Shown piece by piece: positions 1,216 through 38,708 of a stretch of 39,859 bases of DNA (its first letter is position 1; every line of letters begins with the position of its first letter). The position numbers and the translations under genes were made by a program. The DNA lies in assembly GCA_947588985.1 (NCBI GenBank), contig CANQBG010000013.1:1-39859 (forward strand). The letters run 5' to 3'. The notes beneath the pieces were generated by a model, which was given only the letters and a program-made list of their open reading frames with translations, had not been told where the DNA came from and did not search any database. The stretch is from an uncultured Clostridia bacterium. GTDB lineage: Bacteria > Bacillota > Clostridia > Christensenellales > Borkfalkiaceae.

Positions 1216-4200
1216 ATGCGTAGTATCATCAAAACCTATGTGCGCGGCCTTGTGCCGGCGACGGTGGGAACGCTCGCCATGCAGACGATCTCGCCCTTCT
1301 CCCTGCCCGGGCAGCGGGGGAGGGAGACGTCTGCGGGCGCGGAGAGCAGTTCCGCGCCGTCCGGATGTGTGCTCGGATTCCGCCCCGGCACGTCATTGCC
1401 CCCTACCATGTCCGAGATCCTCAAGTTGCAAGAGGAAAAACGGCGCCGGCAGGAGGAGATTTGGCGCGAGAAAAAGGCGCAGGAGGCGCGCGAGCAGGAG
1501 CGCATCCGCCAGACGGTGGATATGGAGCTTCCCATGGATTGGGAAAACGCCTTCGCAGACGACGCCCGCACGCGGGATGTGCACGCGGACAGCGTCCCCG
1601 ATGCGCTCATCGTGAGCATGAACACGCTCGGCCGGGTGGACATCGAGTTCATCGCGGAGATCGCGGGCGTCACCCTCAAAGACGCCATCCTCGCGCTTAG
1701 GGGGAGCATCTACCAAAATCCCGAGACGTGGGGGGAGTGCTTCTACAAGGGCTGGGAGACCTCCGAGGAATACCTCTCGGGCAACCTCATCCGCAAGCGC
1801 AGGATCGCGGAGACCGCCAACCAGCGCTTTCAGGGGTATTTTTCCGATAATCTCGCCGCCATCGACCGCGCCCTTCCGCCCGCCGTCGCGATGGGGGATA
1901 TCTACGTCTCCCTCGGCTCGCCTTGGGTGCCGCCCGAGATCATCGACGACTTCATCACGCACATTCTGCACCTGCATTATCCCTATCACGGGACAAGGCA
2001 CGACGCGCTCACGGGCAGCTGGGAGATCCCCAATAAGGGCGAATTTCGCCAAAAGATCCGCTCGGACAGCGTCTATGGCACCCAGCGCCTCCCCGCGCTC
2101 GACATCTTGGAGCGCACCCTCAACATGCGCGCCGTCACCGTCACCGATGAGGTGGAGAGCCTGAGGACGGTCAGCGGCGTCAGGCGGGTGCCCAACCGCG
2201 TGGAGACGATGCTCGCCGTGGAGAAACAGCGGGCGCTCATCAAGGAGTTTCAGAGTTGGGTCTGGAAGGATCCCGAGCGGCGGAGAACGCTCGAGAACAT
2301 CTTCGAGGAGCGCTACGGCTGCGTGCGGCGGCGCTTCTACGACGGCTCCTTCCTCGATTTCCCCACCATGGACCCGGCCGTGCAGCTCTTTCCCTATCAG
2401 AAGAATGCCGTAGCCCGCATCATCTTCTCGCCCAACACCCTCCTCGCGCACGACGTGGGGGCGGGCAAGACGTACGTCATGATCGCGGCGGGCATGGAGC
2501 TTCTGCGCATGGGGCTCTCGGAGAAGAATTTCTACGTCGTCCCCAACAACCTCGTCGCGCAGTGGAGGAGCATTTGGCTGCAGATGTATCCCGATGCCGA
2601 CCTCTTCACCGTGGAGCCCAAGGACTTCACCCCCAAGAACAAGAACGCCACACTGCTCCGCATGCAGCGGGAAAAGCACGACGGCGTGATCATCGCATAC
2701 AGCTGTTTCGACCGCATCCCGCTCTCCAAGAACTGCCGCATCGACCAGCTCAAACATCAGATCGCAGATGTCACCGCCCGCATGAAGCAATCGTCGAAGG
2801 CGACGGGCGCGCTCGAACGCCGCAAGCGCGATTTAGAGCGCGATCTCGAGGACCTCAAGGATGAGGACGAGAAGAAGGGCGTCTGCTTCGACTCCATGAA
2901 CGTGAGCCGCCTCTTCGTGGATGAGGCGCACAACTATAAAAACGTCCCCCTCGAGACCAAGGTGACGTCTACGCTCGGCATCGGCGGGGCGGGCTCTAAG
3001 CGCTGCCGCGAAATGTTGGAGAAGGTCCGCTTCGTCCAGCGGCGGAACGGGGGGAAGGGCGTCGTCATGGCGACGGGTACGCCCATCACCAACTCCATCA
3101 CCGACGCCTTCGTGATGCAGCAATACCTGCAGAGCGGCGAACTTGCCATGCTCGAGCTCGAGAGTTTCGATAGCTGGGTGGGGATGTTCGCGGAGCGGGA
3201 GGCGCAGTTTGAGATCGACGTGGATACGAGCAATTTCCGCCTCGCCACCCGCTTCTCGCGCTTCCACAACCTCCCCGAGCTCACCGCCCTCCTCTCCTCC
3301 ATTGCCGACTTCCATCAGGCCGACGGATCGGACGCTCCCGGGCACGACGGGTATTACGACGTTGTGATCCCGCGCACGCTCGAGTTCGCAAAATATCTTG
3401 AAAAGATCTCCAAGCGTGCGGACATGGTACGGGGCGGGAAGGTCGATCGTCAGCTCGACAACATGTTAAAGATCACGACGGACGGCCGCAAAGCCGCCCT
3501 CGACTACCGCCTCGTCGATCCCAAGGGGTGCTTCACATACACCTCGAAGGTGGCAAAGTGCGCCGAAAACGTCTCCAATATCTACTTCCACACGCGGGGG
3601 AACCGGAGCGCGCAGCTCGTATTCTGCGATATCTCCACTCCCAAAGATGGCTTTAATCTCTATGACGAGCTCAAGCGTCTGCTCATCGTCTATGGCGTAC
3701 GGGAGGAGGAGATCGCTTTCATCCACGACGCGACCACAGACGATCAGCGCGAACGGCTCTTCGCCCGGGTGCGGGCGGGGGAGGTGCGCGTGCTCATCGG
3801 CTCCACCTTCAAATTGGGGCTCGGCGTCAACGTGCAGGAGCGGCTCATCGCCCTCCATCACCTCGATGTGCCGTGGCGCCCCTCGGACATGGTCCAGCGC
3901 GAGGGCCGCATCTTGCGGCAGGGGAACACCAATTCCCGCGTCTTTCTCTATCGTTACATCACCGAGGGCAGTTTCGACGCCTATTCGTGGCAGCTCCTCG
4001 AGACCAAGGCCCGCTTCATCTCCGATCTGCTCTCCGGCTCCATGAAGGACCGCAGCGGTACGGATGTGGACGACGTCGTGCTCGACTATGCCGAAGTGAA
4101 GGCGCTCGCCGTGGGCAATCCCCTCATCAAGGAGCGCGTGGAGACGGCCAACGAGCTCACGCGGCTGCATACGCTCAACCGCAAAGCCGCGGAGGCGCGG

Positions 4201-4734
4201 ATGCGTTTGGAGCAAGAGAGGGGTACCATGCCCAAGAGATGCGCCGAGCAACGGGCTGCGATCGAGCATTGCGCGGAGGACGTTTCGTACTACGACGCGT
4301 GGAAACAGGTCCATCTTGCGGACGGCGGCGGGAAGGCGGAGATCGACGAACGCCGCGAGACGCGTGAGCTTCTGCGCCTCGGGTTTGCCGAGGAGCCGAT
4401 GACGCACGAATTCGAGATCTGCTGCTACCGCGGCTTCGTCTTGTCGCGGCCGGCGGGCTTCCCCGAGCGGCCCTACCTCATCGTGCGGCGCGCGGGAACG
4501 TATATCGTGGAACTCGGTGAGGCGGAGGGCGGCTATCTTGCCCGTGTGGACCACTGCCTCGATACCCTCGCACAGCACAAGGCGCGGCTTGAAGAACGGC
4601 TCGAAGAACTCAAGCGGCGCGAGGAGGATATCGCCGCCGAACTTGCACGCGGCGAGGACTATTCGGAGCGCATCGACGCGGTGCGCGAACGGCTTGCCGA
4701 AATCGATAAAAAATTGAAGGTGGACAAGAAATGA
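1216..4734 (+). CDS. Large SNF2/DEAH-type helicase, stand-alone relative of mobile-element helicases
   Basis: 1172-residue superfamily 2 helicase. Start ATG 1216 is chosen because AAAGGAGG (1204-1211) precedes it; the frame is open further upstream without a ribosome site. Walker A GAGKT is at residues 415-419, the DEAH box at 569-572, a motif-V-like segment FKLGLGVNVQ shortly before, and motif VI QREGRILRQG at 894-903. Charged coiled-coil-like segments flank the core (about 69-97, and the last 60 residues). The N-terminal part (LGRVDIEFIAEIAGV, then SEEYLSGN and WVPPE) resembles the region found in helicase/methylase proteins of conjugative elements and phages, but no methyltransferase domain is present. 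Its stop overlaps the next start (ATGA), so it is probably translationally coupled to the MoxR and vWA genes. Substrate and role are unknown. Confidence 0.85.
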   Translation: MRSIIKTYVRGLVPATVGTLAMQTISPFSLPGQRGRETSAGAESSSAPSGCVLGFRPGTSLPPTMSEILKLQEEKRRRQEEIWREKKAQEAREQERIRQTVDMELPMDWENAFADDARTRDVHADSVPDALIVSMNTLGRVDIEFIAEIAGVTLKDAILALRGSIYQNPETWGECFYKGWETSEEYLSGNLIRKRRIAETANQRFQGYFSDNLAAIDRALPPAVAMGDIYVSLGSPWVPPEIIDDFITHILHLHYPYHGTRHDALTGSWEIPNKGEFRQKIRSDSVYGTQRLPALDILERTLNMRAVTVTDEVESLRTVSGVRRVPNRVETMLAVEKQRALIKEFQSWVWKDPERRRTLENIFEERYGCVRRRFYDGSFLDFPTMDPAVQLFPYQKNAVARIIFSPNTLLAHDVGAGKTYVMIAAGMELLRMGLSEKNFYVVPNNLVAQWRSIWLQMYPDADLFTVEPKDFTPKNKNATLLRMQREKHDGVIIAYSCFDRIPLSKNCRIDQLKHQIADVTARMKQSSKATGALERRKRDLERDLEDLKDEDEKKGVCFDSMNVSRLFVDEAHNYKNVPLETKVTSTLGIGGAGSKRCREMLEKVRFVQRRNGGKGVVMATGTPITNSITDAFVMQQYLQSGELAMLELESFDSWVGMFAEREAQFEIDVDTSNFRLATRFSRFHNLPELTALLSSIADFHQADGSDAPGHDGYYDVVIPRTLEFAKYLEKISKRADMVRGGKVDRQLDNMLKITTDGRKAALDYRLVDPKGCFTYTSKVAKCAENVSNIYFHTRGNRSAQLVFCDISTPKDGFNLYDELKRLLIVYGVREEEIAFIHDATTDDQRERLFARVRAGEVRVLIGSTFKLGLGVNVQERLIALHHLDVPWRPSDMVQREGRILRQGNTNSRVFLYRYITEGSFDAYSWQLLETKARFISDLLSGSMKDRSGTDVDDVVLDYAEVKALAVGNPLIKERVETANELTRLHTLNRKAAEARMRLEQERGTMPKRCAEQRAAIEHCAEDVSYYDAWKQVHLADGGGKAEIDERRETRELLRLGFAEEPMTHEFEICCYRGFVLSRPAGFPERPYLIVRRAGTYIVELGEAEGGYLARVDHCLDTLAQHKARLEERLEELKRREEDIAAELARGEDYSERIDAVRERLAEIDKKLKVDKK
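1404..1414 (+). repeat. Dispersed word, exact TACCATGTCCG
   Basis: In the helicase gene, encoding Thr-Met-Ser. The ATG here is not used as a start: no ribosome site. Confidence 0.9.
3419..3429 (-). repeat. Dispersed word, exact TACCATGTCCG
   Basis: In the helicase gene on the opposite strand; the coding strand reads Ala-Asp-Met-Val. Confidence 0.9.
3884..3894 (-). repeat. Dispersed word, variant GACCATGTCCG
   Basis: In the helicase gene, reading Ser-Asp-Met-Val just before motif VI. Protein conservation alone could explain this copy. Confidence 0.6.
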
Positions 4735-5846
4735 GTGAGCCTATGACGTCAAATCTCCCTACCATGTCCGTGGATAAGGTGGTAGAAAGCCTCTCCGCGA
4801 TGTACTGTTCCGCGCTCCGCAACAAGACGGCGAAGCGGCTTCCTTCGGTGATGCTCTGGGGCCCGCCCGGCGTGGGCAAGTCGCAGGCCGTACGCGAGCT
4901 TGCCGAGGAGATCGGCGCGGAGACGGGCAAGCGCACCGTCGTCACCGACGTGCGGCTGCTCCTCTTCAACCCCATCGACCTTCGCGGCATTCCCACGGCC
5001 AACGCCGATAAGACGCTCGCCGTGTGGCTCCGCCCTAAGATCTTCGATATGGATGAGCGCGAAAACGTGTGCAATCTCCTCTTCCTCGATGAGATCTCGG
5101 CGGCGCCGCCCTCCGTGCAGGCCGCGGCCTACCAGATCACGCTCGACCGCGTGGTGGGGGAACACCGCCTGCCCGATAACTGCATCGTCATCGCGGCGGG
5201 CAACCGCGTGACCGATCGGTCCGTCGCCTACCGCATGCCCAAGGCCCTCTCCAACCGCCTTCTGCACATCGAAGTGGAGAGTAACTTCTCGTCGTGGAGG
5301 AGGTGGGCCGTGCGCAGCGGCATTCATGAGAAGGTGCTCGGCTTCCTATCCTTCCGCCAGAACTACCTCTCCTGCTTCGACGCTTCCAACGACGACCTCG
5401 CCTTCGCGACGCCCCGTAGCTGGGAGATGGTGAGCAATCTCCTCCGCGAGCTCGGGGGGAGCGTGGAGGCCAACTACCCGCTCATCGCGGGGCTCGTCGG
5501 TGCGGGCGTGGCCATCGAGATGCGCACGTGGGAGACGGTGTATAGTCAGCTCCCCTCCATCGAGGGCATCTTCCGCGGACGGGGCGGACCCATGCCCAAG
5601 AGCGTAGACGCGCTCTATGCGCTCACCGCCTCCATGACGGCCTATGCGCGGGAGCACCGCAACGATATGAACCTCATCGCCAACTCCATCCGCTATGCGG
5701 AGCACATGCCGCCCGATTTCGCCGTCATCCTCATGAAGGACTACATGTTCCTCGAACGGGGCTACCGCGAGAAACTCATGAAGGTCCCCGAATTCGTGCG
5801 CTGGCTGAATACCAAGGGGAGCTTGCTCAATGGAACAAGGCCTTGA
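4731..5846 (+). CDS. MoxR-type AAA+ ATPase
   Basis: 371-residue AAA+ ATPase. Walker A GPPGVGKS is at residues 44-51, Walker B LLFLDE at 116-121 with D120/E121, and a sensor-like VIAAGNRVTDR segment follows. MoxR ATPases usually act with a vWA-domain partner as chaperone-like remodelling pairs; the next gene supplies such a partner. The ATG overlaps the helicase stop (ATGA, 4731-4734). The next gene starts 17 bases before this one ends, so the three are probably translationally coupled. The N-terminal residues PTMS (10-13) come from an exact copy of the dispersed word TACCATGTCCG. The client is unknown. Confidence 0.88.
   Translation: MSEPMTSNLPTMSVDKVVESLSAMYCSALRNKTAKRLPSVMLWGPPGVGKSQAVRELAEEIGAETGKRTVVTDVRLLLFNPIDLRGIPTANADKTLAVWLRPKIFDMDERENVCNLLFLDEISAAPPSVQAAAYQITLDRVVGEHRLPDNCIVIAAGNRVTDRSVAYRMPKALSNRLLHIEVESNFSSWRRWAVRSGIHEKVLGFLSFRQNYLSCFDASNDDLAFATPRSWEMVSNLLRELGGSVEANYPLIAGLVGAGVAIEMRTWETVYSQLPSIEGIFRGRGGPMPKSVDALYALTASMTAYAREHRNDMNLIANSIRYAEHMPPDFAVILMKDYMFLERGYREKLMKVPEFVRWLNTKGSLLNGTRP
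4760..4770 (+). repeat. Dispersed word, exact TACCATGTCCG
   Basis: Near the start of the MoxR gene, encoding Pro-Thr-Met-Ser. Confidence 0.9.
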
Positions 5847-7260: not shown

Positions 7261-9861
7261 ATGGAACAATATCAAAAGGACGTGCGGGAAGTACTCTCGG
7301 ATACGGGGAGCGGGGAGGGCGGCCTCACCTCTGCGGAGGCGGAACGCAGGCTCCGCGGGGGAAGAAACGTCCTCCGGGCGGGCAAGAAAAAGAGCAAAGT
7401 CGGCCTCTTCTTTGCACAGTTCAAGGACCTCATGACGCTCATTCTCATCGCCGCGGCGGCGCTCTCGGGCGCGCTGGCCTTCGCGACGCGGGATACGGGC
7501 GAGCTCGTGGATACGGGCATCCTGCTCTTCATCATCCTCCTCAACGCCCTCGTCGGCTTCCTGCAGGAGTACCGCGCCGATTCCGCCTTGGAGAAGCTCA
7601 AAAAGCTCTCGCGCTGCGAGGCCAAGGCGGTGCGCGGCGGCAAGATCGTGAAGGTGGACGCCGAGGAGCTCGTCGTGGGGGACGTCGTCGAACTCGAGGA
7701 GGGGGACCGCGTGCCCGCCGACTGCCGCATCCTCTCCTCCGAGGAGTTGCGCGTCGATGAATCCGCGCTCACGGGGGAATCCAAGCCCGTGCGCAAATAC
7801 GACTGCTTGATCCGCAGGTCTGCGCTGGCCGAGCGCAAAAACACCCTCTTCGCCTCCACCTTCTGCGTGAAGGGGAGCGCGCGGTGCGTCGTCGTGGGGA
7901 CGGGAATGGACACCGAAATGGGGCGCATCGCGGAGCTGCTACAAAAGAGCCCCGAGGGGCGCTCCCCCCTCGATCAAACGATCGCCCGCCTCGGCAAGAT
8001 CATCACGGCCGCCGTGCTCGCCGTGGCCGCCGTCCTCTTTCTCGGGAGCCTGCTTGCGGGGCGGGTCAGCATTCTGAAGGGACTGATGTCGGCCGTCGCG
8101 GTCGCCGTCGCGGCCATTCCCGAGGGCATGGGGGCCGTCGTCACCGTTATCCTCGCCATGGGCGTCCAGCGCATGGCCAAGCGGCGCGCCGTGATGCGCA
8201 AGCTCTCGGCCGTGGAGGCGCTCGGCAGTTGCAGCGTGATCTGCTCGGACAAGACGGGGACGCTCACCCAAAACAAGATGCGCGTGGAGGCCGTGGAGAC
8301 GGAGGCGCGCGAGGAGCTCCTGCGGTGCATCCGCGCCTGTCATTCCGTGAAGGGGACGGCCGGCGGCTACGTGGGCGACCCCACCGAGATCGCGCTTTTG
8401 GAATATGCGGACGCCGCCGCATACCAATTTTCCCCCACCCATGTCGGGGGGACGCCCTTCACATCCGAGCGCCGCATGATGAGTGCGGCCGTTCGCGAGG
8501 GGCAAGAAATCCGCCTCTACTGCAAGGGCGCAGTGGAGACGATCCTTAAAAAATGTACGCGGATTTCCGCATGCGGGCAGGTGCGCGCCATGACCGCGGA
8601 GGACCGCACGCGCGTTTTTCGCTGTGCCGCCCTTCACGCGCAGGCCGCCATGCGCGTACTCGCCTTCGCCGTGGGGGAGGGGACGGAGGAGGGGGACCTT
8701 ATCTATCTCGGCCTCGCGGCCATGCTCGATCCCCCCAAGGCGGGCGCCGCGGAGGCCGTGGAAAAATGTCGGCGGGCGGGCATCAAGACGGTGATGATCA
8801 CGGGGGACAGCCCCGAGACGGCCCTTGCCATCGCGCTTCGCCTCGGCATCGCCGGGGGGCGGGAGGAAGTCGTTACGGGCGAGGAGCTCGACGGCATGGG
8901 AGCGGAGGAATTCGGCCGCCGCGCCGCGCAGTACAGCGTCTATGCCCGCGTCTCGCCCAAGCACAAGTCCGAGATCGTGCGCGCGCTGAAGGCGAGGGGG
9001 GAGGTCGTCGCCATGACGGGGGACGGCGTCAACGACGCCCCCGCGCTCCGTGCCGCCGATATCGGCGTGGCCATGGGGTCGGGAACGGACGTCACCAAGG
9101 ACGCCGCGGACATCGTCATCGCGGACGACGATTTCTCCACCATCGTGCAGGCCGTCGAGGAGGGGCGCAACGTCTTTGGCAGCGTCAAAAAGACCATCTC
9201 CTTCTTCCTCGCCACCAATCTCGCGGAGGTGCTGTGCGTGCTCGTCGTCTCCCTCTTTTTGTGGCGATACGACTTTCTCACCTCCACGCAGCTGCTCTTT
9301 GTCAACCTCATCACCGACACGCTGCCCGTCCTGGCGCTCGGCATGGAGAAGCTCGACGGCGCCATGGACCGCCCGCCCACCCACGACGGCGAGATCTACG
9401 CGCGCGGCGCGCTGATACGCATTGCCGTGTTCGGCGCGATCCAGGCGGCGATCGTCGTGGGCGTTTTTGTTGCGGCGAATCGGCTCTATGGCGGCAAGAC
9501 GGCGCAGACGATGGCCTTCACCACCCTCTCGCTCTTGGAGCTCTTCTATGCCTTCAACGTGCGAAAGGAGGATACCATGTCCGGGATCCGGGACTTCTTT
9601 TCCAATCGGACGCTGCTCGTGACCGTCGCGATCGGGCTGGGGATCTCCGTTTTGCTCGTGGTGACGCCCCTACGCGAACTCTTCGGGCTCGCCTTCCTGA
9701 ATTTCCCGCAGTGGATGGCCGTGATCGGGCTCTCCGCCCTGATCGTTCCGCTCGGAGAACTCTATAAAGCGCTCCTGCGCGCCGTCCGAAAGCGCAAAAA
9801 AAGGCTCCGTCCCGCCGCGAGCCTTGCCTCCTTTGACCGCAAACGGCCATACCATGTCTGA
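7261..9861 (+). CDS. Cation-translocating P-type ATPase, Ca2+ type
   Basis: 866-residue P2-type ATPase that would export Ca2+ (or a similar divalent ion) using ATP. The order is an N-terminal cation-ATPase domain, TM1-2, actuator loop with TGESKPV, TM3-4, phosphorylation site DKTGTLT (Asp330), nucleotide-binding domain, hinge TGDGVNDAP (586-594 region, GDGVND 587-592) and the C-terminal membrane bundle. TM4 reads PEGMGAVV rather than the usual PEGLPAVV, losing the second proline; TM6 NLITDTLPVLALGMEK is of the bacterial type. Start ATG 7261 has only a weak ribosome site (AGGAT). An exact TACCATGTCCG lies in the 3' part and a one-mismatch copy overlaps the stop (9850-9860). Confidence 0.9.
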   Translation: MEQYQKDVREVLSDTGSGEGGLTSAEAERRLRGGRNVLRAGKKKSKVGLFFAQFKDLMTLILIAAAALSGALAFATRDTGELVDTGILLFIILLNALVGFLQEYRADSALEKLKKLSRCEAKAVRGGKIVKVDAEELVVGDVVELEEGDRVPADCRILSSEELRVDESALTGESKPVRKYDCLIRRSALAERKNTLFASTFCVKGSARCVVVGTGMDTEMGRIAELLQKSPEGRSPLDQTIARLGKIITAAVLAVAAVLFLGSLLAGRVSILKGLMSAVAVAVAAIPEGMGAVVTVILAMGVQRMAKRRAVMRKLSAVEALGSCSVICSDKTGTLTQNKMRVEAVETEAREELLRCIRACHSVKGTAGGYVGDPTEIALLEYADAAAYQFSPTHVGGTPFTSERRMMSAAVREGQEIRLYCKGAVETILKKCTRISACGQVRAMTAEDRTRVFRCAALHAQAAMRVLAFAVGEGTEEGDLIYLGLAAMLDPPKAGAAEAVEKCRRAGIKTVMITGDSPETALAIALRLGIAGGREEVVTGEELDGMGAEEFGRRAAQYSVYARVSPKHKSEIVRALKARGEVVAMTGDGVNDAPALRAADIGVAMGSGTDVTKDAADIVIADDDFSTIVQAVEEGRNVFGSVKKTISFFLATNLAEVLCVLVVSLFLWRYDFLTSTQLLFVNLITDTLPVLALGMEKLDGAMDRPPTHDGEIYARGALIRIAVFGAIQAAIVVGVFVAANRLYGGKTAQTMAFTTLSLLELFYAFNVRKEDTMSGIRDFFSNRTLLVTVAIGLGISVLLVVTPLRELFGLAFLNFPQWMAVIGLSALIVPLGELYKALLRAVRKRKKRLRPAASLASFDRKRPYHV
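9573..9583 (+). repeat. Dispersed word, exact TACCATGTCCG
   Basis: In the P-ATPase gene, in a cytoplasmic loop codon run reading Asp-Thr-Met-Ser. Confidence 0.9.
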
Positions 9862-11754: not shown

Positions 11755-11785
11755 CCCCCACTCGCGGACATGGGTGGGGGATTTT
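11755..11785 (+). terminator. Terminator of the epimerase gene, with a dispersed word in its loop
   Basis: CCCCCAC (11755-11761) pairs with GTGGGGG (11774-11780), followed by ATTTT. The 12-base loop and the start of the right arm are made of the dispersed word (CGGACATGGGTG, 11765-11776). Confidence 0.75.
11765..11776 (-). repeat. Dispersed word, variant CACCCATGTCCG
   Basis: Not coding: fills the loop and begins the right arm of the epimerase terminator. Confidence 0.85.
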
Positions 11786-13701: not shown

Positions 13702-14583
13702 TTACGGCGTCTCGAGGTTGGAAATTTTTCCGTCGCCGTCGAGGGTGACGCGGACGTAGACGACTTCAAAGACGCGCTCGCCGCGCGGGTAGACGAGCCC
13801 GACCTCCTCGGGCGAATCGGTGAGGACGACGGAGACGAAATTTCCGAGAAATTCCCCGAGGGCGTCGGCCTTTTGGCGGAGCGATGGAGAGAGGAAGGGG
13901 GCGGGGTCGGCGCCGATGAGGACGGATTCGAAGAAGGCGAGTGCAAACGTCGCCGCCGTGGGTTTTTGGGGAGTGCGGATGCGCGATTCCACGAGCTTGC
14001 CCCTTTCATAGGTGCAGACGGCAAAGTGGCGGAGGCTGTCGTGGAAGGGGATCTCCGCGACGACGTGAGGCTCCGTCTCGGACACGGTACCCTCGGAAAG
14101 CGTGAGGATCTCTCCCTCCGGCGAAAGAATACAGAAGCAATCCGGGGCCTTCAGCAGGAAACAGTCGTCCGCGAAAAGGATCTCGGCCGCCTCGAACGCG
14201 TCGGGGAGGTCGATGAGGCGAAAGTCTGCGCCGCGCGAAAAGGAGAGCTGCACGCCGCCCTGCCGGTAGAGGGTGAGGAGGGCGCCGCCGAGCCGTTTTT
14301 GCGCGATGGGGCGGAGGGTGGCGTCCTCGCGCGCAAAGCGGGAGAGATAGATCGCCGTGCCCGCGCGCGTATGGTAGAGGGAGACCCCCTCGGGTGGCGC
14401 GAGCAGGAAGCATTCGCTGAGGAAAAATCGAAGGGGCCGATATCCCGGCGCCACGCATTCCACGAGCAGGTCGTCCGCGGGGGTGAGCTCGAGGGAGCGC
14501 TCGTGGCCGTCGATGAGGCCGAGGGGCAGGCCGCCCACGAAGAGCATACAGGGGAGGGAAGATAAAAAATAAACGCGCATCAT
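13702..14583 (-). CDS. Hypothetical protein with N-terminal hydrophobic segment
   Basis: 293 residues, not recognised. The N-terminus MMRVYFLSSLPCMLFVGGLPLGLIDG could be a signal sequence or just a buried strand. The rest is rich in beta-type segments (GVSLYHTRAGTAIYLSRF, CFCILSPEGEILTLSEGTV), with no catalytic motif I can name. The frame stays open far upstream, across the divergent gene, but ATG 14583 fits the start of real coding character and sits eight bases after a promoter -10 element, with no ribosome site, so the message may be leaderless. It is divergent from the Myb-like gene. Confidence 0.6.
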   Translation of the reverse strand: MMRVYFLSSLPCMLFVGGLPLGLIDGHERSLELTPADDLLVECVAPGYRPLRFFLSECFLLAPPEGVSLYHTRAGTAIYLSRFAREDATLRPIAQKRLGGALLTLYRQGGVQLSFSRGADFRLIDLPDAFEAAEILFADDCFLLKAPDCFCILSPEGEILTLSEGTVSETEPHVVAEIPFHDSLRHFAVCTYERGKLVESRIRTPQKPTAATFALAFFESVLIGADPAPFLSPSLRQKADALGEFLGNFVSVVLTDSPEEVGLVYPRGERVFEVVYVRVTLDGDGKISNLETP

Positions 14584-16450: not shown

Positions 16451-16463
16451 CGGACATGGGGTG
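16451..16463 (-). repeat. Dispersed word, variant CACCCCATGTCCG
   Basis: Not coding: directly before the queH ribosome site. Confidence 0.8.
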
Positions 16464-27300: not shown

Positions 27301-29472
27301 ATGCAACCGATCGCAAAAATTCTTGCCGAAGAACTCGGAAAGCGGGAGGAGCACGTTCAGAACGTCATCGACCTGCTCGACGAGGGCAACACCGTCCCCT
27401 TCATCGCGCGTTACCGCAAGGAAATGCACGGCACGATGGACGACCAGACCATCCGCACCCTTGCGGACAGGCTTCAATATCTTCGCAACCTCGAGGCGAG
27501 AAGGGTGGAGGTGAAGAACTCCATCGAGGGGCAGGGCAAGCTCACCCCCGAACTCGCGCTCTCCATCGACCGCGCCGCAACGCTCGCGGAGGTGGAGGAC
27601 CTCTATCGCCCCTATAAGCAGAAGCGCCGCACCCGGGCCACCGTCGCCAAGGAGAAGGGCCTCGAGCCCCTCGCGGAGCTCCTCTACGCGCAGGATCCCG
27701 CCTGCCCCGTCCCCCTTACGGCGGCGGCGAAGTACGTCGATCCCGAGAAGGGCGTCGAGACTGCGGAACAGGCCCTTGCGGGGGCGAGCGACATTGTCGC
27801 GGAGATGATCTCAGACAACGCCGAGGTGCGCAAACATCTGCGCGCGCTCTTCGTGCAGTGCGCGGACATCGTCTCCTCCGCCGCAAAGAAGGACCCGGAG
27901 GACACCGTCTACCGCAATTACTATGCCTTCCGCTCCCCCGTGTGTCGGGTGCAGGGCCATCAGGTGCTTGCCTTCAACCGCGGCGAGCGCGAGGAAGTCT
28001 TAAAAGTCGGCGTGGATATGAACCGCGAGGCCGCCTTAAACGTCGTCGGAAGATACGTTGTCAAACGGCCCCGCTGCAATTCCACGGAGTTTGTGACGGC
28101 CGCCATGGAGGACGCCTATGACCGCCTCATCTTCCCCTCCGTCGAGCGGGAGGTCCGCGCCATGCTCACCGACTCCGCCAACGAGGGGGCCATCGGGCAG
28201 TTTGCGCTCAACTTAAAGCCCCTCCTCATGCAGCCGCCCGTCAAGGGCTTCGTTACGATGGGATTGGACCCCGGCTACCGCATGGGGTGCAAGGTAGCCG
28301 TCGTAGACGGGACGGGCAAGGTACTCGATACGACGGTCGTCTATCCCACCTACGGCGAGCGCCAGAAGCAGGAATGTATTAAAAAACTCTCCGAGCTCAT
28401 CAAGAAAGATAAGGTGAAACACATCGCCATCGGCAACGGCACGGCGAGCCGCGAAACGGAGCAGATGACGGTGGAACTCATCGCCTCTCTCGGACATGGG
28501 TGCGGCGTTTCTTATATGATCGTGAATGAAGCGGGGGCTTCCGTCTATTCCGCTTCCCCGCTTGCGGCCAAGGAATTCCCCGAATTCGACGTCAATCTCC
28601 GCTCGGCCGTCTCCATCGCAAGAAGGCTGCAAGACCCGCTTGCCGAGCTCGTCAAGATCGATCCCAAGTCCATCGGCGTGGGGCAATACCAGCACGACAT
28701 GCCCGAAAAAAGGCTCTCCGAGGCCCTCGACGGCGTGGTGGAGGACTGCGTCAACGCGGTGGGGGTAGACGTCAACACGGCTTCCGCGCCCCTCCTCGCG
28801 CGGGTGGCCGGCCTCAACGCGGGCGTCGCCAATAATATCGTGAAGTATCGCGAGGAAAACGGCTCCTTCACGGCGCGGCGGCAGATCTTAAAGGTCCCCA
28901 AACTCGGGGAGAAAGCCTTTGAGCAGTGCGCGGGCTTTTTGCGCGTGCCCGAGAGCAAAAACGTGCTCGATAACACCGCCGTCCACCCCGAGAGCTACGC
29001 GGCCGCAGAAAAGCTCTTGGAACTGTGCGGCTACACCGAGGACGACGTGAAGGCGGGCCGTCTCTCCGAGTTGCGCACCCGCATGAAGGCGATCGGGGAA
29101 AAACGGCTTACGGAGGCCTGTAACGCGGGCATGCCTACCCTCAACGACGTCGCGACCGAGCTCATGAAGCCGGGCCGCGACCCGCGCGACGAGCTTCCCG
29201 CCCCCGTCCTCCGCACCGACGTGCTCGAGATCAAGGACTTAAAACCCGGCATGGAGCTCAAGGGGACGGTGCGCAACGTTATCGACTTCGGCGCGTTCGT
29301 GGATATCGGCGTGCACCAAGACGGCCTCGTGCACATCTCCCGCATCTCCGATCGCTTCATCCGTCACCCCTCCGAGGTGCTCTCCGTGGGCGACGTCGTC
29401 ACCGTGTGGGTGCTCGATGTCGATGAAAAGAAGAACCGCATCTCCCTCACGATGAAAAAGCCCAAAAACTGA
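27301..29472 (+). CDS. tex: Tex-family RNA-binding protein (S1 domain)
   Basis: 723 residues, typical for Tex. N-terminal helical Tex region (1-200), YqgF-like RNase H fold (about 325-450, MGLDPGYRMGCKVAVVDGTG), helix-hairpin-helix pair (about 490-560, NTASAPLLARVAGLNAGVANNIV) and a C-terminal S1 domain (about 645-718, GMELKGTVRNVIDFGAFVDIG). Tex binds nucleic acid and affects transcription or RNA quality control. ATG 27301 follows GAGGAG; an earlier in-frame ATG lacks one. A copy of the dispersed word (28491-28502) reads LGHGC here. The terminator 29482-29507 follows. Confidence 0.94.
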   Translation: MQPIAKILAEELGKREEHVQNVIDLLDEGNTVPFIARYRKEMHGTMDDQTIRTLADRLQYLRNLEARRVEVKNSIEGQGKLTPELALSIDRAATLAEVEDLYRPYKQKRRTRATVAKEKGLEPLAELLYAQDPACPVPLTAAAKYVDPEKGVETAEQALAGASDIVAEMISDNAEVRKHLRALFVQCADIVSSAAKKDPEDTVYRNYYAFRSPVCRVQGHQVLAFNRGEREEVLKVGVDMNREAALNVVGRYVVKRPRCNSTEFVTAAMEDAYDRLIFPSVEREVRAMLTDSANEGAIGQFALNLKPLLMQPPVKGFVTMGLDPGYRMGCKVAVVDGTGKVLDTTVVYPTYGERQKQECIKKLSELIKKDKVKHIAIGNGTASRETEQMTVELIASLGHGCGVSYMIVNEAGASVYSASPLAAKEFPEFDVNLRSAVSIARRLQDPLAELVKIDPKSIGVGQYQHDMPEKRLSEALDGVVEDCVNAVGVDVNTASAPLLARVAGLNAGVANNIVKYREENGSFTARRQILKVPKLGEKAFEQCAGFLRVPESKNVLDNTAVHPESYAAAEKLLELCGYTEDDVKAGRLSELRTRMKAIGEKRLTEACNAGMPTLNDVATELMKPGRDPRDELPAPVLRTDVLEIKDLKPGMELKGTVRNVIDFGAFVDIGVHQDGLVHISRISDRFIRHPSEVLSVGDVVTVWVLDVDEKKNRISLTMKKPKN
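28491..28502 (-). repeat. Dispersed word, variant CACCCATGTCCG
   Basis: In tex, in a third reading frame: Leu-Gly-His-Gly. Confidence 0.85.
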
Positions 29473-31529: not shown

Positions 31530-32368
31530 ACGTCCTCTTCTGCGTGTTTTCGGGCACGGGCAACACGAGAAAAGTTGCCGCGCGTTTTGCCGAGGAACTC
31601 CGCGCGCTCGGGCACACGACGAGCAGCTATGAGATCAAAAAGGGGGCGCCCATGCCCGAGCTCGAGGGCTTCGATCTGCTCATCTTCGGCTATCCCGTCC
31701 ACGCCTTCAACGCCCCTGAGATCGTGACGAAATTCCTCAAAAAATTCCCGAAGGGGAGCCTTCCCTTCTATCTCCTCCGCAGCGAGGGGGAGCCCTCCAA
31801 GCTCAACGACGCGGCGGGCCTTGCGCCGAAGCGCATTTTGCAGAAGAAGGGGTATTCCCTCGCGGGAGAATTTACCGTCGTCATGCCCTACAACATCCTC
31901 TTCCGCCACTCCGACAAGATGGCCGTGCGCATGTGGCAGGCGGCGGAAAAGCGCATCGAGCACGGCGCCCGTCTCGTGGACGCCCTCGGCGGCGAGACGA
32001 AAAAGGTCAACCTCATCCGGCGGGCGGCGGCCTTTTGTCTGCGCATCGAGCACCCCGCCATGCCCGTCCTCGGCAAGACTTTCCATGTAAACGCCAAACA
32101 GTGCGTCGGCTGCGGAAAATGCGCCGCGGGCTGCCCCACGGGCAACATTCGCATGGAGGAGGGGCGGCCCAAGTTCGGCGGCCACTGCGTGGGCTGCATG
32201 GGCTGCGCCTTTTGGTGCCCCGCCGACGCCGTCCGCATCTCCCTGCTCAACCCTTGGCGGGTCAACGGGCCCTACCCCGCGGAGGGCGACCCCGCTTCGG
32301 ACGAGGAGATCTGCCGTTATCTTCGGAAAATGTACACAAATTATTTTCACGAATCGGAGAAGTTATAG
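31526..32368 (+). CDS. EFR1-type flavodoxin/ferredoxin protein
   Basis: 280 residues. N-terminal flavodoxin-like domain with FSGTGNTRKVAARFAEEL phosphate-binding loop; C-terminal pair of 4Fe-4S clusters: CVGCGKCAAGCPTGN and CVGCMGCAFWCPADAV (about residues 193-232). The EFR1 family carries electrons in anaerobes; the partner here is presumably the overlapping SDR protein, which would then be linked to low-potential electron flow (inference). No promoter of its own; the start is coupled through ATGA at 31526-31529. Confidence 0.9.
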   Translation: MNVLFCVFSGTGNTRKVAARFAEELRALGHTTSSYEIKKGAPMPELEGFDLLIFGYPVHAFNAPEIVTKFLKKFPKGSLPFYLLRSEGEPSKLNDAAGLAPKRILQKKGYSLAGEFTVVMPYNILFRHSDKMAVRMWQAAEKRIEHGARLVDALGGETKKVNLIRRAAAFCLRIEHPAMPVLGKTFHVNAKQCVGCGKCAAGCPTGNIRMEEGRPKFGGHCVGCMGCAFWCPADAVRISLLNPWRVNGPYPAEGDPASDEEICRYLRKMYTNYFHESEKL

Positions 32369-32390: not shown

Positions 32391-32401
32391 CGGACATGGT
32401 C
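32391..32401 (-). repeat. Dispersed word, variant GACCATGTCCG
   Basis: Not coding: between the EFR1 gene stop and the bidirectional terminator. Confidence 0.8.
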
Positions 32402-32479: not shown

Positions 32480-33535
32480 TCAGAAGGGGAGGGAGAAGGG
32501 GAGCCCGAGGGTGAGCTTTTCGCGGACGTCGATATCGAGCAGACTTTCGACCTCCACCGAGATGAGCGCGGAGATGCGGGTGTGGACGACGAAGCGATAC
32601 TTGAGGCTCATGGATTCGAAGAGGATGTAGAGCCGCCCGTCCTTTAAGAAGATCTCCTCGCTCATGCAGGGGAGGATCATGTTTGCGCCCATGTCCTCCA
32701 GCACATAGAGGGGGACTTCCGCCCCGCCCACGGAGATCGTCTGCTGCGCCACCTCATCGAGGACGTTTGGATAGATGTGCAGGCGCGAATCGGGAAGGCC
32801 ATAGGAACAGGAGAGGACGATATGTTCCCCGTCGATGGCGATCCCCTGTACTTCATCGCACACGGAGAGCGCTTTGGTGGGCACCATGTCCGAGACGCCC
32901 GCTTCGATTTGGTCGAGCGGGAAGGCATAGACGAGGGCGTGGTTGGTCCCCGCGGAGGTCTCGATGTGGTGGGAGACGTCCGTCTCGTAATTTCCGGGGC
33001 GGTAAAATTCGCCCGCATAGAGCGTGTCGCCATAGAGGTAGCAGTAAGCGTTTTGAATGCCCGTGGAAAAGCTGCCGTCGATCTCCACCGCCGCGCCGGA
33101 GGGGGCGGCGTAGAGCTTTTCGAGGGAGACATAGACGATCTTCTTGCCGCTCGCGATGTAGAGGGTGCTCTCCGAGCAGGTGACGCCGCCGAAGTGCGTC
33201 TTAATGGCCTTGCCGCTTTCGGTGAAGGTGACGAAGCATTCCGTCTTTTTCACATCGCTCACCGCGGGGTCGGCAAAGAGCAGGTAGACGCGCGAGGGCT
33301 CGCCCGAGATGTAGCCGCTCATGGCGTACTGATAGACGCCGCCCGCGGGAAGGGCGCAGACGCCCTGCGGCGAGAGGCCGGTAGAGAGTCCGGGGAGGTG
33401 CTTTTCGCGGCGGGATACGCTGTCGAAATAGGGGTAGGAATAGCCGTACCACCAGAATGTGAGCAGCAGGAAGAGGACGAGGAGCACGGAGGCGACGGCC
33501 GTGAGGGCGGCGATGGTGCGTTTTTTCGATTTCAT
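32480..33535 (-). CDS. Hypothetical membrane-anchored extracellular protein
   Basis: 351 residues, not recognised. Basic N-terminus MKSKKR, one membrane segment (ALTAVASVLLVLFLLLTFWWYGY), then a domain of repeated beta strands (CFVTFTESGKAIKTHFGGVTC, TLYIASGKKIVYVSLEKL, EIDGSFSTG), which may be propeller-like. Expected outside the membrane. Start ATG 33535 is backed by AAAAGGAG and by the promoter 33583-33555; a longer frame exists upstream without these. No catalytic motif seen. A copy of the dispersed word (32882-32892) reads SDMVP. Confidence 0.7.
   Translation of the reverse strand: MKSKKRTIAALTAVASVLLVLFLLLTFWWYGYSYPYFDSVSRREKHLPGLSTGLSPQGVCALPAGGVYQYAMSGYISGEPSRVYLLFADPAVSDVKKTECFVTFTESGKAIKTHFGGVTCSESTLYIASGKKIVYVSLEKLYAAPSGAAVEIDGSFSTGIQNAYCYLYGDTLYAGEFYRPGNYETDVSHHIETSAGTNHALVYAFPLDQIEAGVSDMVPTKALSVCDEVQGIAIDGEHIVLSCSYGLPDSRLHIYPNVLDEVAQQTISVGGAEVPLYVLEDMGANMILPCMSEEIFLKDGRLYILFESMSLKYRFVVHTRISALISVEVESLLDIDVREKLTLGLPFSLPF
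32882..32892 (+). repeat. Dispersed word, variant CACCATGTCCG
   Basis: In the leftward hypothetical gene, whose own strand reads Ser-Asp-Met-Val. Confidence 0.8.
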
Positions 33536-33676: not shown

Positions 33677-34273
33677 ATGGATTTCACCAAGACGCAGACG
33701 TTTCACAACTTAGCGCGAGGATTCGCGGGAGAGTGTCAGGCGGGCATGCGATACCAACTTACGGCAAAAGCTGCGATGCAGCAGGGATACAAAGTTCTCG
33801 CGGATACCATCCGCACCATCGCCAAGAACGAGACCAACCATGCGAAGGTCTTTTTCGAGGCCATTCTGGAAAACGCGGGGAGCCGGGACGATATTTCTAT
33901 CGACGCGAGCTTCCCCTTCCATGCGGGGACCATCGAGGACAACTTGCGGTTTGCGGCGATCGACGAGCAGGATGAGGCGGAAAATCTCTACCCCATGTTC
34001 GCGAAGATCGCGCGGGAAGAGGGGTTTGGGCAACTTGCCTTAAAATTCGAACAGGTCGCCAAAGTCGAAGAGAACCACAGGATCATCTTCAACTATCTGT
34101 TTGAGGCGTTCAAGGACGGCTCCCTCTACCGGGCGGAGCGGCCGATGCTGTGGATCTGCAGCGAATGCGGGTATATGCACACCTCCAAGGAGGCATGGAA
34201 CATCTGCCCCTTGTGCGGCGCGTCGCAGGGAGAAGTCGAGCTGCACCTTCCCTTCAAAAAGGAGAATTTATGA
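33677..34273 (+). CDS. Rubrerythrin
   Basis: 198 residues. Non-haem iron peroxidase that protects anaerobes by reducing peroxide with electrons through rubredoxin. The ferritin-like domain has Glu19, Glu52-xx-His55 (NETNH), an EQDEAENLY segment and EENHR as diiron ligands. The C-terminal rubredoxin domain has Cys161-xx-Cys164 and Cys177-xx-Cys180. Start ATG 33677 follows GGGAGGAG. I see no clear promoter in the gap 33584-33676. The stop overlaps the start of the tiny next gene. Confidence 0.95.
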   Translation: MDFTKTQTFHNLARGFAGECQAGMRYQLTAKAAMQQGYKVLADTIRTIAKNETNHAKVFFEAILENAGSRDDISIDASFPFHAGTIEDNLRFAAIDEQDEAENLYPMFAKIAREEGFGQLALKFEQVAKVEENHRIIFNYLFEAFKDGSLYRAERPMLWICSECGYMHTSKEAWNICPLCGASQGEVELHLPFKKENL

Positions 34274-34535: not shown

Positions 34536-34542
34536 ATCGGGG

Positions 34543-34659: not shown

Positions 34660-36018
34660 ATGAAGAAATCATCTCTATTTTTATCCATTGCGATCGTGCT
34701 CGTCATGATCCCGCTGTTTGCGTCGTGCGGGCTCTTGAACCTTTTGCCCGTCGATGACAGCATTCCCTCCGAAGTGGCCGTCTCCCGCGGGGAGGCCGGC
34801 TCGCGCGAGAGCTTTCTCGCGTCGCAGGAGACTCCCACCACGGAGCTCCGCCGCGCCTTCGAGGAGGCCCAAGCGGACGGCTATGCGGGCACCTATTACG
34901 ACTTTTTGGAGGGGCTCGGCCTCACGGACGGCGCCGCACGCCTGCAACAGGCCCTCCGCGCTTCCGTCTCCGTCTTTGCCTACTTCTCCAAGGGGCAGAA
35001 GGTACGCGACTTTTACAGCGCCGGTTCGGGCACGATCTACGACCTCGACGCGGACATGGGTAGGGCGCTTATCGTCACCAACTATCACGTCGTCTATAAC
35101 ACGGGCAGTACGGGGCGGGAGACGATTTCGCACGTCAGCGACGATGTGGAGGTCTATCTCTATGGGGAGACCCATGAGAGCCGGGCCATGAAGGCCACCT
35201 ATGTGGGCGGCGTGATGCAGTATGATGTCGCCGTGCTCTCCGTCACGAGCGACTTTCTGAAGGCGGAGGACGGCGCCGGGTTTGCGACGGAGCTCGTTGC
35301 GGCCGATTCCGACAGCATCTCCGCGGGGGAAACGGTTTATGCCGTGGGCAACGCGGACGGCAAGGGCGTCTCCGTGACGGGCGGCGTCGTCTCCGTTCCC
35401 ATCGAATATGCCCCCATCTACGCGGCCGATGAATCGACGCGCGTAAACATGCCCGAGATCCGCATCGACGTCGCGCTCAATCACGGCAATTCGGGCGGCG
35501 GCCTCTTCACCGCAAACGGGGAATTTATCGGAGTCGTCAACGCGCGAAGCGAGGAGGAGGGCATTTTGGGCTTCGGCTACGCCATCCCCGCCAATTTGGT
35601 GCTCTCGATCGCGCAGAACATCATCGATACCTGTGCCGTCGACCCCACGGTGCACGGCGCGGCCGTGGCCCATCTCGGCGTCACGCCCGGAGTGGCCACC
35701 GAAAACAGCCTGTTCGACGCGGAGACGGGCAAGGTCTATACCGAGGAGAAGGTCATCCTCGAGAGCATTACCTACAGCGGGCTTGCCGACCGCGCCGGGC
35801 TCACGGAGGCGGATACCCTCCTTTCGTTGAAGCTGACCCCCGCGAGCGACGCCTCCCGCACGCGCACGGTGGCCGTGACGGCCCGCCATAAGCTCACGCA
35901 GCTCCTCTTCGAGGTGCGGCTCGGGGATACGCTCGAACTCACCGTCTCCCGCAACGGCAAGATCGAAACGGCGACGATCGAATTCTCCTCCCGGAACTGT
36001 TTCAGGACCATGAACTGA
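34660..36018 (+). CDS. Trypsin-like serine protease lipoprotein with PDZ domain (HtrA-like)
   Basis: 452 residues. Signal peptide with lipobox FASC, so an exported lipoprotein. The trypsin-like domain has the triad His143 (TNYHVV), Asp189 (YDVAVL) and Ser278 (GNSGG). A PDZ-like part follows (about 345-440: VILESITYSGLADRAGLTEADTLL... LFEVRLGDTLELTVSRNGK). The order matches Deg/HtrA surface proteases that deal with misfolded exported proteins. A region between the lipobox and protease (about 45-105) is helical and unassigned. A copy of the dispersed word (35051-35062) reads DADMGR in the protease domain. Confidence 0.9.
   Translation: MKKSSLFLSIAIVLVMIPLFASCGLLNLLPVDDSIPSEVAVSRGEAGSRESFLASQETPTTELRRAFEEAQADGYAGTYYDFLEGLGLTDGAARLQQALRASVSVFAYFSKGQKVRDFYSAGSGTIYDLDADMGRALIVTNYHVVYNTGSTGRETISHVSDDVEVYLYGETHESRAMKATYVGGVMQYDVAVLSVTSDFLKAEDGAGFATELVAADSDSISAGETVYAVGNADGKGVSVTGGVVSVPIEYAPIYAADESTRVNMPEIRIDVALNHGNSGGGLFTANGEFIGVVNARSEEEGILGFGYAIPANLVLSIAQNIIDTCAVDPTVHGAAVAHLGVTPGVATENSLFDAETGKVYTEEKVILESITYSGLADRAGLTEADTLLSLKLTPASDASRTRTVAVTARHKLTQLLFEVRLGDTLELTVSRNGKIETATIEFSSRNCFRTMN
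35051..35062 (-). repeat. Dispersed word, variant TACCCATGTCCG
   Basis: In the serine protease gene; coding strand reads Ala-Asp-Met-Gly. Confidence 0.85.
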
Positions 36019-36040: not shown

Positions 36041-36051
36041 TACCATGTCCG
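36041..36051 (+). repeat. Dispersed word, exact TACCATGTCCG
   Basis: Not coding: 23 bases after the protease stop, at the edge of the repeat mosaic. Confidence 0.9.
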
Positions 36052-36541: not shown

Positions 36542-36548
36542 TAAATCC

Positions 36549-36658: not shown

Positions 36659-36676
36659 ATCTGTAAGGATATTCCC

Positions 36677-36844: not shown

Positions 36845-36873
36845 TTGACTTTTCTTCGCGCATATAGTATGAT
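36845..36873 (+). promoter_or_regulatory. Promoter of mgtE
   Basis: TTGACT (36845-36850), 17-base spacer, TATGAT (36868-36873). The predicted leader is about 160 bases. Confidence 0.75.
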
Positions 36874-36880
36874 AGAGGTA

Positions 36881-37040: not shown

Positions 37041-38708
37041 ATGAAAGAAGAACTCAAAGTTTTGCTCGAAGCAAAGGACTACAAGGGAGTTGCCGCGTCG
37101 CTGAAAAAACCCGACGAGGCGGCTCTTTTATTATCCGAACTTGAAAGCGACGACGTCGTTTCCCTATGCCATGTCTTAGACAACGACTTCCTTGCCGACG
37201 TCTTGGTGCTCCTCAGCCCCGCGCTGCAGGAGACCGTCGTCAAGGGCCTTCGGGACGACGAACTCGAAGAAGTCATGGAGGATATCTCGGTAGACGATAC
37301 CGTGGATATCATCGAAGAGATGCCCGAGGAAGTGGCGCGCAGGATCGCGGAGGAGGACGAGATCTTAAAGCTCTTGGAGGAGCGGAAGTTCTCCGTCCTC
37401 AAGCCGCTGCTTTCCTCTATGAACGAGATCGATCTCGCGGAGATCTTCGAGAGCGCGAAGGAGGCCGATCTTCCCGTCCTCTTCCGCATTTTGCCCAAAG
37501 ATCTCGCCGCGGATATGTTCGTCGAGATCGACAGCGACACGCAGGAAAAGCTCCTCAAAAAGCTCAACGACCGCGAGATCAAAGAGGTCATGGACGAACT
37601 CTTCCTCGACGACACCGTGGACCTCATCGAGGAGATGCCCTCAAGCGTCGTCAAGCGGCTCCTCGCCCAGAGCGACAACGAGACGCGGGCCTACATCAAC
37701 GAGCTTCTGAAGTATCCCAAAGACAGCGCGGGAAGCATCATGACCATCGAGTTCGTGCGATTCCTGCCTACCATGTCCGTGAAGGAGGCCTTCGATCGCA
37801 TCCGCGAGACGGCCATCGACAAGGAGACCATCTACACCTGCTATGTCACCGATCTCAAGAATGAGCTCATCGGCCTCGTCACGGCGAAGGACCTCATGCT
37901 CGCCCGCCCCGACGCGCTCATCTCGGAGATCATGGAGGACAACGTCATCTATGCCAACACCCTCGACGACAGGGAGGAGGTCGCCCGCAAGATCTCCGAT
38001 TACGGCTTCCTCGCCCTGCCCGTCGTAGACAGGGAACGCCGCCTCGTCGGCATCGTCACCGTCGACGACGCCATGACCGTCATCGAAGAGGAGACCACCG
38101 AGGACCTCGAGCGCATGGTCGGTATCGTCCCCGCCAACAAGCCCTACCTCAAGACGAGCGTCTTTTCCATTTGGAAGAATCGCGTCCCGTGGCTGCTCAT
38201 TCTCATGGTCTCCGCCACGTTTACGGGCCTCATCATCAACACTTTCGAGGGCCGGCTCAACGCCATCAGCACCGTGCTCTTCGCCTGCGTTCCCATGCTC
38301 ATGGATACGGGCGGGAACTCGGGCTCGCAGGCCTCCGTCACCGTCATCCGCGCCCTCGCCCTCGGGGAACTCACCACGGCCGATACGTGGAAGGTCGCGT
38401 GGAAGGAACTGCGCGCCTCCCTGCTGCTCGCCGTGACCCTCGGCGTCGCCTGTTTTGCGAAGCTCATGCTCATCGATAACCTCATCTTCGGCTATCATGA
38501 TTACACGCCGCTGCTCTGCTCCGTCGTCGCGCTTGCGCTCGCATGCACCATCGTCATCGCCAAGCTCGTCGGCTGCCTCCTTCCGCTCCTCGTGAAGAAG
38601 TGCAAATTAGACCCCGCGGCCGTCGCCTCGCCCTTCATTACGACCATCGTAGACGCCGTCTCGCTCATTCTCTTCTGCGGGTTGGCCATCGCGATCCTCC
38701 CCGCATAA
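37041..38708 (+). CDS. mgtE: Magnesium channel/transporter MgtE
   Basis: 555 residues. Imports Mg2+ (and some Co2+/Mn2+). N-terminal superhelical MgtE_N domain with acidic repeats (about 1-225), two CBS domains (about 235-290 and 297-355) that sense cytosolic Mg2+, a connecting helix, and five membrane helices from about 375. The pore motif PMLMDTGGNSGSQAS begins near residue 418. ATG 37041 has GGAGG eight bases upstream; an earlier in-frame start lies inside the leader. An exact dispersed word (37769-37779) reads PTMS at the first CBS domain. Translation may be controlled by its leader. Confidence 0.95.
   Translation: MKEELKVLLEAKDYKGVAASLKKPDEAALLLSELESDDVVSLCHVLDNDFLADVLVLLSPALQETVVKGLRDDELEEVMEDISVDDTVDIIEEMPEEVARRIAEEDEILKLLEERKFSVLKPLLSSMNEIDLAEIFESAKEADLPVLFRILPKDLAADMFVEIDSDTQEKLLKKLNDREIKEVMDELFLDDTVDLIEEMPSSVVKRLLAQSDNETRAYINELLKYPKDSAGSIMTIEFVRFLPTMSVKEAFDRIRETAIDKETIYTCYVTDLKNELIGLVTAKDLMLARPDALISEIMEDNVIYANTLDDREEVARKISDYGFLALPVVDRERRLVGIVTVDDAMTVIEEETTEDLERMVGIVPANKPYLKTSVFSIWKNRVPWLLILMVSATFTGLIINTFEGRLNAISTVLFACVPMLMDTGGNSGSQASVTVIRALALGELTTADTWKVAWKELRASLLLAVTLGVACFAKLMLIDNLIFGYHDYTPLLCSVVALALACTIVIAKLVGCLLPLLVKKCKLDPAAVASPFITTIVDAVSLILFCGLAIAILPA
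37769..37779 (+). repeat. Dispersed word, exact TACCATGTCCG
   Basis: In mgtE at the first CBS domain, reading Pro-Thr-Met-Ser. Confidence 0.9.

Follow-up and report, generated by a model that had tools for sequence, protein, structure and literature searches.

A dispersed asymmetric motif in genomes of uncultured Borkfalkiaceae, kept at the DNA level and nearly absent from one stretch of the chromosome

What keeps a short non-palindromic word scattered through the genome of a clostridial bacterium, on both strands and in coding and non-coding DNA alike? The question is raised by a stretch of 39,859 nucleotides (hereafter the window; positions 1 to 39,859 of contig CANQBG010000013.1, assembly GCA_947588985.1) from an uncultured member of the family Borkfalkiaceae, in which the word TACCATGTCCG recurs; a first-pass annotation, made from the letters alone, had likened this word to a DNA uptake sequence. 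The genome behind the window (G000) comprises 1,595,175 bases in 69 contigs and is 83.5% complete. The signal is real and is maintained at the DNA level. The word is the centre of a much longer motif, which some species of the genus possess and others lack, and which is nearly missing from one large region of apparently core genes.

Abundance of the word and anatomy of the motif

All seven exact copies of TACCATGTCCG (the T-form word) that had been reported for the window were recovered, six on the forward and one on the reverse strand, against a mean of 0.00 over 100 dinucleotide shuffles of the same DNA. The shorter core, CCATGTCCG, has 17 sites (9 forward, 8 reverse), and the earlier count of 18 sites, nine per strand, comes out as 17 or 18 according to the pattern used. 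The heptamer ATGTCCG is found 20 times where 5.8 occurrences are expected. Across G000 there are 122 copies of the exact word and none of the reversed word, which served as control. Ranking words by an order-4 Markov model in 260 kb of the genome, contig C1 excluded, puts members of this word family in all of the top six places at each length from 8 to 11. The over-representation extends well beyond the window, and is confined neither to this region nor to one protein motif.

Alignment of 64 core sites from 13 sampled stretches of G000 reveals conserved positions from −35 to about +26 around CCATGTCCG. Upstream these are a G at −35, A or T at −28, GAC at −17 to −15, an A-rich patch at −12 to −9, and a G at −7. 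The core is preceded by TA(C), the upstream C being single or double while the distance of the A patch from the core is unchanged, and is followed by [AC]GA, AG at +15/16, a T near +19/20 and an A at +24/25. The motif is about 60 bp long and asymmetric, with its patches spaced about every ten bases. In a second species (G025), which took no part in the building of the motif, 74 exact-core sites show largely the same flanking positions. A weight matrix was applied with cut-offs of >16 bits for the list of window sites, >17 bits for densities and >18 bits for the window count. In the window, 25 sites exceed 18 bits; the 260 kb sampled from G000 outside C1 yield 97 that exceed 17 bits, and 400 kb of G025 yield 122. 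Five order-3 Markov resamplings of the G025 sequence returned 0, 1, 0, 0 and 0 matches, and the reversed sequence returned 0. A transposed, inserted or otherwise mobile repeat is rejected as the source of the copies, because outside the core they share only scattered positions, and because they sit in conserved genes such as pheT.

With respect to genes, the 64 core sites of G000 divide into 24 in sense orientation (4, 12 and 8 over the three frames), 30 in antisense (2, 20 and 8) and 10 outside open reading frames (ORFs); the corresponding figures for the 122 sites of G025 are 57, 53 and 12. These ORFs were picked mechanically and some are spurious, for example the one lying over position 23682 of the window. 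The use of several frames, of both strands, and of coding as well as non-coding positions supports the earlier proposal that selection acts on the DNA rather than on protein. Three terminator-like hairpins that carry a site were folded, and all are more stable than their shuffled counterparts (z = −2.7, −5.8 and −6.9). In the most stable of them (locus L130, 4592–4655, reverse strand; −34.9 kcal/mol, z = −6.9) the motif site makes up the loop together with some of the stem.

Conservation of site positions

Sites of G000 that lie in alignable DNA often have a counterpart at the same place in word-rich relatives: 12 of 14 in G034, 6 of 12 in G009, 4 of 6 in G092, 25 of 40 in G025 and 7 of 9 in G016, or 54 of 81 overall, where chance would give 1–3%. 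Core identity in these five comparisons is 80–91% against a background of 74–76%, the smallest gap being that of G092 (79.6% vs 76.3%). In the word-poor near-sister G012, by contrast, none of seven G000 sites is kept, and core identity (63.5%) lies below the background of 75.7%. G034 and G012 are about equally near to G000 (PheT 84% and 83%), yet they hold 127 words and 1 word, respectively. The site within pheT illustrates the pattern and its irregularity, its core being kept in G034, G092 and G009 and changed in G012, but also in the word-rich G025. The conservation of positions and cores in word-rich genomes, together with the loss in G012, argues on comparative grounds that selection or drive keeps the sites in place in word-rich species, and that they are lost otherwise.

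A region with few sites

The sites do not cover the chromosome evenly. Contig C1 of G000 (208 kb), which was singled out after inspection, holds 5 of the 122 exact words (P = 8e-4), and contig C2 of G025 (219 kb) holds none of 82 (P = 6e-6). The C-form word, ACCATGCCCG, is rare on these contigs too (0 of 55 in G000, 1 of 45 in G025). Measured as matrix sites above 17 bits per 10 kb in sampled stretches, the density in dense parts of word-rich genomes is 3.00–4.69. It falls to 0.17 in C1 of G000 at 0–120 kb (2 sites) and to 0.25 at 140–180 kb, to 0.17 in C2 of G025 at 100–219 kb (2 sites in 119 kb) and to zero at 0–40 kb of its contig C4, to 0.48 in C6 of G034 (3 sites in 63 kb), and to 0.41 in C1 of G009 at 120–169 kb (2 sites in 49 kb). 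The region, referred to below as the desert, is thus nearly site-free in four word-rich species (0–0.5 vs 3–4.7 per 10 kb). Eight word-poor genomes have 4 matrix sites in 453 kb.

The site-poor stretches correspond to each other. C6 of G034 is collinear with C1 of G000 at 75–132 kb across 26 matched proteins, and C1 of G009 at 120–169 kb with C1 of G000 at 120–180 kb across 21; for G025, synteny to C1 of G000 is demonstrated just in the neighbourhood of two contig ends, the end of C2 and the beginning of C4. The genes on C1 of G000, named by eye, include dxs, recN, polA, dnaE, valS, typA, gltX, rnr and dnaG, and are apparently core genes. Misbinning of C1 is rejected as the main cause: its composition matches that of its own genome, no genome searched besides its own gave a near-identical RNase R (best match 71%), and the collinear regions of G034 and G009 are poor in sites as well. 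Contigs bearing dnaA have normal site density in all six word-rich genomes examined.

Distribution across relatives and variant cores

Close relatives by PheT are uncultured Clostridia and Candidatus Gallimonas. Among 80 relatives, the 48 genomes of the same genus contain 0–144 exact words, while the 32 from other families contain 0–3, the same as the reversed control. When the count was widened to 301 genomes of the family, G092 gave 250, G227 159 and G089 143, and many species gave none; within the genus, the number of exact copies lies between 0 and 250. The C-form word numbers 55 in G000 and 45 in G025, and 13 and 19 in the word-poor G012 and G037.

A related word, ACCATGCCCG, is raised in the sister genus g37, with 97, 74, 77 and 84 copies in four of its five genomes (G096, G113, G128 and G140), where the reversed control gives 2–4; the fifth, G150, has only 12. 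The same four genomes contain 11, 15, 9 and 18 copies of the exact T-form word. We read ACCATGCCCG as a variant core of the word, and note that 19 of its sites in samples from g37 show no clear A/T flanks. It also stands above control in three genomes of other genera (26 vs 1 in G101, 21 vs 0 in G102, 21 vs 2 in G137). In genus g35 (for example G169, G205, G234 and G319) there are 11–22 copies of TACCATGTCCG and none of the reversed control, and the motif did not resolve in 45 kb of G205.

Other words were sought in 40 kb samples of eight word-poor species, and two ranked high. One, CTGAGGGGGT in G037, has 7 copies with a common longer context; the other, TGTCATTTCG in G007, has 12 copies, all within 20 kb (L134, C3 1–20000), including a tandem run of four separated by C-rich spacers. 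Both were read as local repeats. The top words of G140, which come mostly from one repetitive stretch, were set aside. A literature search, judged from its listings apart from the passages cited here, showed no report of the word, or of uptake sequences in the host group; according to the part of PMC5397411 available to us, Veillonella had been screened for uptake words earlier and gave no clear one.

Possible functions

Noc and SlmA bind everywhere on the chromosome except the terminus. We tentatively favour a comparable logic for the word, with rather less than even confidence: it may be the binding site of a chromosome-organising protein that is kept out of one domain, this protein not being a second ParB. 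One sequence-specific protein would contact about 60 bp on one face of the DNA, as the patches roughly every 10 bp suggest. Several hundred such sites would mark most of the chromosome, the dnaA neighbourhood included, and would be nearly kept out of one large domain, where sites would be selected against. The bound protein might organise or anchor the chromosome, or couple it to segregation or division. The sites, the motif, the kept positions, the loss in G012 and the conserved desert are observed; a single protein, such a role for it and a position of the desert remote from the origin are inferred. A domain-marking protein predicts a desert and needs no pilus, and is for these reasons preferred over DNA uptake.

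Several observations weigh against this proposal. ParB_N, the family of ParB and Noc, is represented by one copy in each of 11 word-rich genomes (at least 40 words each), and therefore by no second, Noc-like copy; a second ParB-type protein was accordingly set aside as the reader. In the dense part, sites are spaced no more evenly than chance would have them (CV, the coefficient of variation, 0.91; P = 0.19), and evenly spaced compaction sites are rejected on the same near-random spacing. The search for the terminus gave no convincing dif site, and the GC skew is too weak to place the desert there. For the variant core seen in another genus, an uptake receptor would be at least as good an explanation. 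In G092, 3 sites fall in one orthologous stretch of 20 kb, a density of 1.5 per 10 kb that compares with about 6 in two further stretches of that genome, and a pair of sites at 128.5 and 129.0 kb of C1 in G000 has counterparts in the same genes of G034 and G092; these two findings lowered our confidence slightly. A block of C1 at 133–141 kb (within L117, C1 120–140 kb) holds 4 sites. Lastly, the sites of Noc (Bacillus) and SlmA (E. coli) do resemble those described here in being spread over most of the chromosome with one region left out, but Noc sites number about 70 and are palindromic, as far as the accessible part of PMC4331003 goes, whereas here there are several hundred and they are asymmetric.

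Two of these points can be followed further. The block at 133–141 kb has matches at two places on the site-rich contig C1 of G025, as if it had moved in. The sampled part of C1 outside the block contains 5 sites in about 172 kb, two of them with the counterparts in G034 and G092. The turnover seen in the 54 of 81 comparison would lead one to expect about 12 gains in the same length; this is a rough estimate, and the shortfall points to sites being continually excluded from the desert. In the neighbourhoods of dnaA, no gene limited to word-rich genomes was seen in the comparable part of 60 kb of G025.

The leading alternative, which we regard as unlikely though worth serious weight, is the one first proposed, a DNA uptake sequence. 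The host would then be a naturally transformable clostridium whose surface receptor prefers DNA with the motif; sites would accumulate by molecular drive as DNA bearing them is imported and recombined, and loss of competence would lead to loss of sites. The anatomy is in keeping with this, the sites being dispersed, asymmetric, on both strands, in several frames, in coding DNA and in terminator loops, with A/T flanks helically spaced like those of the Haemophilus USS, an apparent variant core and kept positions. Uptake signal sequences (USS) of the Pasteurellaceae, of Hin and Apl types, have a like architecture in the portion of PMC1626085 that was at hand: an abundant short core, A/T segments about one helical turn away, and two core types divided by subclade. 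The present motif is unlike them in having A/T patches on both sides of the core, in its clostridial host and in its desert. The DNA uptake sequences (DUS) of the Neisseriaceae likewise combine a short core with dialects, use of terminators and kept places (excerpts of PMC3630211 and PMC2397512); 71% of them are exactly conserved according to the latter excerpt, and the kept positions and raised core identity reported above are of the same kind. In the three folded hairpins, unlike in DUS terminators, the site lies in the loop and not as an inverted pair; the importance of long flanks and the desert are further differences.

The machinery and the desert fit the uptake reading less well. Competence and pilus genes were sought, as the first-pass annotation had suggested. 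ComEC is present in 57 of 61 genomes of the genus regardless of word count (the four without it are less than 80% complete), and DprA in all 28 chosen genomes, word-rich and word-poor (with a weaker match in G037). Their presence is compatible with uptake, but does not separate rich from poor. A pilus-type ATPase, called at a PF00437 match above 200 bits among at most 26 best first-look candidates per genome, was found in 3 of the 11 word-rich genomes (G000, G025, G092) as against 7 of 11 word-poor ones (0–1 words, at least 85% complete; Fisher P = 0.2), which leaves 8 of the 11 word-rich genomes, unlike the hosts of USS, without a strong match. Five of those eight (G009, G030, G034, G087 and G089) are 98–99% complete and show no strong match among their at most 26 best candidates each. 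In the word-poor G001, G027 and G035 the match is 336–356 bits rather than >430, and these ATPases may belong to another class; in the word-poor G036 it is split across two contigs. Uptake by type IV pili is disfavoured as a general driver on the count of 3 of 11. Uptake drive would not be expected to leave a conserved desert in genes that are apparently core, and we know of no parallel among uptake sequences to a site-free stretch of core genes. On the longest contig of G025 (400 kb), moreover, 76 of 122 sites lie on one strand (P = 0.008), an excess not repeated on two other contigs (7 of 20, 8 of 18), whereas uptake sequences are described as free of orientation bias in the part of PMC1939737 that could be consulted.

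It is improbable that the sites are neutral relics, left behind by an earlier system or by a selfish process such as site-specific gene conversion: the patchy occurrence within the genus would suit such a remnant, but the core is conserved above the alignment average in five of five word-rich comparisons and is lost in G012. Chi sites are asymmetric and over-represented, measure 5–8 bp and have no flanks; a Chi-like signal, telling a recombination enzyme of the AddAB/RecBCD type when to stop degrading DNA, would account for the asymmetry, the high frequency and the strand excess seen on one contig and not on two others, and is more improbable still, given that a helically spaced motif of about 60 bp would misfit the recognition of a short single strand, that the sites are patchily lost inside one genus, and that there is a desert in apparently core genes.

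A broader statement covers both the favoured domain-marking protein and a pilus-independent form of uptake, and we hold it with a confidence approaching, but not reaching, an even balance. In a genus of gut clostridia, the motif may be a hitherto unknown address code of about 60 bp per site and several hundred sites per genome, set over most of the chromosome and nearly excluded from one domain, and read by a protein other than a pilus receptor or a second ParB-type protein. This would make it either a chromosome-domain code that arose independently of Noc, SlmA and MatP, or the first signal for uptake of self-DNA outside the Neisseriaceae and Pasteurellaceae, one that does without a type IV pilus. 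A USS-like word that came and went inside a single clostridial genus, and that has a desert on the scale of the chromosome, would amount either to self-DNA recognition having arisen a third time or to a chromosome-organising code of a new kind. The occurrence of near-sisters with the word (G000, G034) and without it (G012) makes the hunt for the reading protein tractable.

Sites in the window and neighbouring genes

Six of the seven exact words in the window also score as motif sites, all on the forward strand: 1404..1414 (25.0 bits), 4760..4770 (31.9 bits), 9573..9583 (29.0 bits), 23680..23690 (36.9 bits), 36041..36051 (39.8 bits, the top score of the window) and 37769..37779 (27.1 bits). The seventh, at 3419..3429 on the reverse strand, has weak flanks and is not among the sites above 16 bits, and the same holds for the score of two cores CCATGTCCG at 3884..3892 (reverse) and 13126..13134 (forward). 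The copy at 23680 lies upstream of pheS and is found in G034 and G092, and not in G012 or G009; that at 36041 is intergenic.

Further core sites are located on the forward strand at 19286..19294 (29.7 bits) and 32884..32892 (28.0 bits), and on the reverse strand at 11765..11773 (31.3 bits, in the loop of a terminator-like hairpin), 16451..16459 (25.6 bits, directly ahead of queH), 19924..19932 (19.6 bits), 28491..28499 (22.9 bits), 32391..32399 (32.9 bits, intergenic) and 35051..35059 (28.2 bits). The site in pheT occupies 25239..25247 on the reverse strand (31.6 bits). Five copies had been described as non-coding, and this is borne out for each of them: 11765 in its terminator loop, 16451 before queH, 23682 before pheS, and 32391 and 36043 in spacers. 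The label of T-box leader given to the copy before pheS was not confirmed, as Rfam at gathering thresholds yields one tRNA only in the window.

Motif sites with other cores comprise CCATGTCTG at 9852..9860 (forward, 34.1 bits), CCGTGTCCG at 14079..14087 (reverse, 27.3 bits) and 22689..22697 (forward, 30.2 bits), GCATGTCCG at 15068..15076 (forward, 24.8 bits) and CCATGTTCG at 33993..34001 (forward, 19.4 bits), together with the C-form core at 20825..20833 (reverse, 29.9 bits) and 31650..31658 (forward, 33.2 bits). The weight matrix adds sites at 4226..4234 (forward, 21.1 bits), 29126..29134 (reverse, 25.1 bits) and 18607..18615 (reverse, 25.5 bits), the last in an ABC transporter gene and with a similar site in G025, and a weak one at 28697..28705 (forward, 16.9 bits).

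At 1096–7098, right behind rplJ-rplL, the window encodes a large SNF2-like helicase, a MoxR-type AAA ATPase and a DUF2201 metallopeptidase/VWA protein, whose genes overlap in operon-like fashion. The helicase weakly resembles anti-phage helicases, and no homologue exceeded the cut-off in 0.92 Mb of G025. Several motif sites are present in it, although it looks like an insertion. At the end of the window (39023–39853) there is a repetitive open frame of 276 aa with repeated LAVLTILAI-like units, which may account for several of the top 12-mers.

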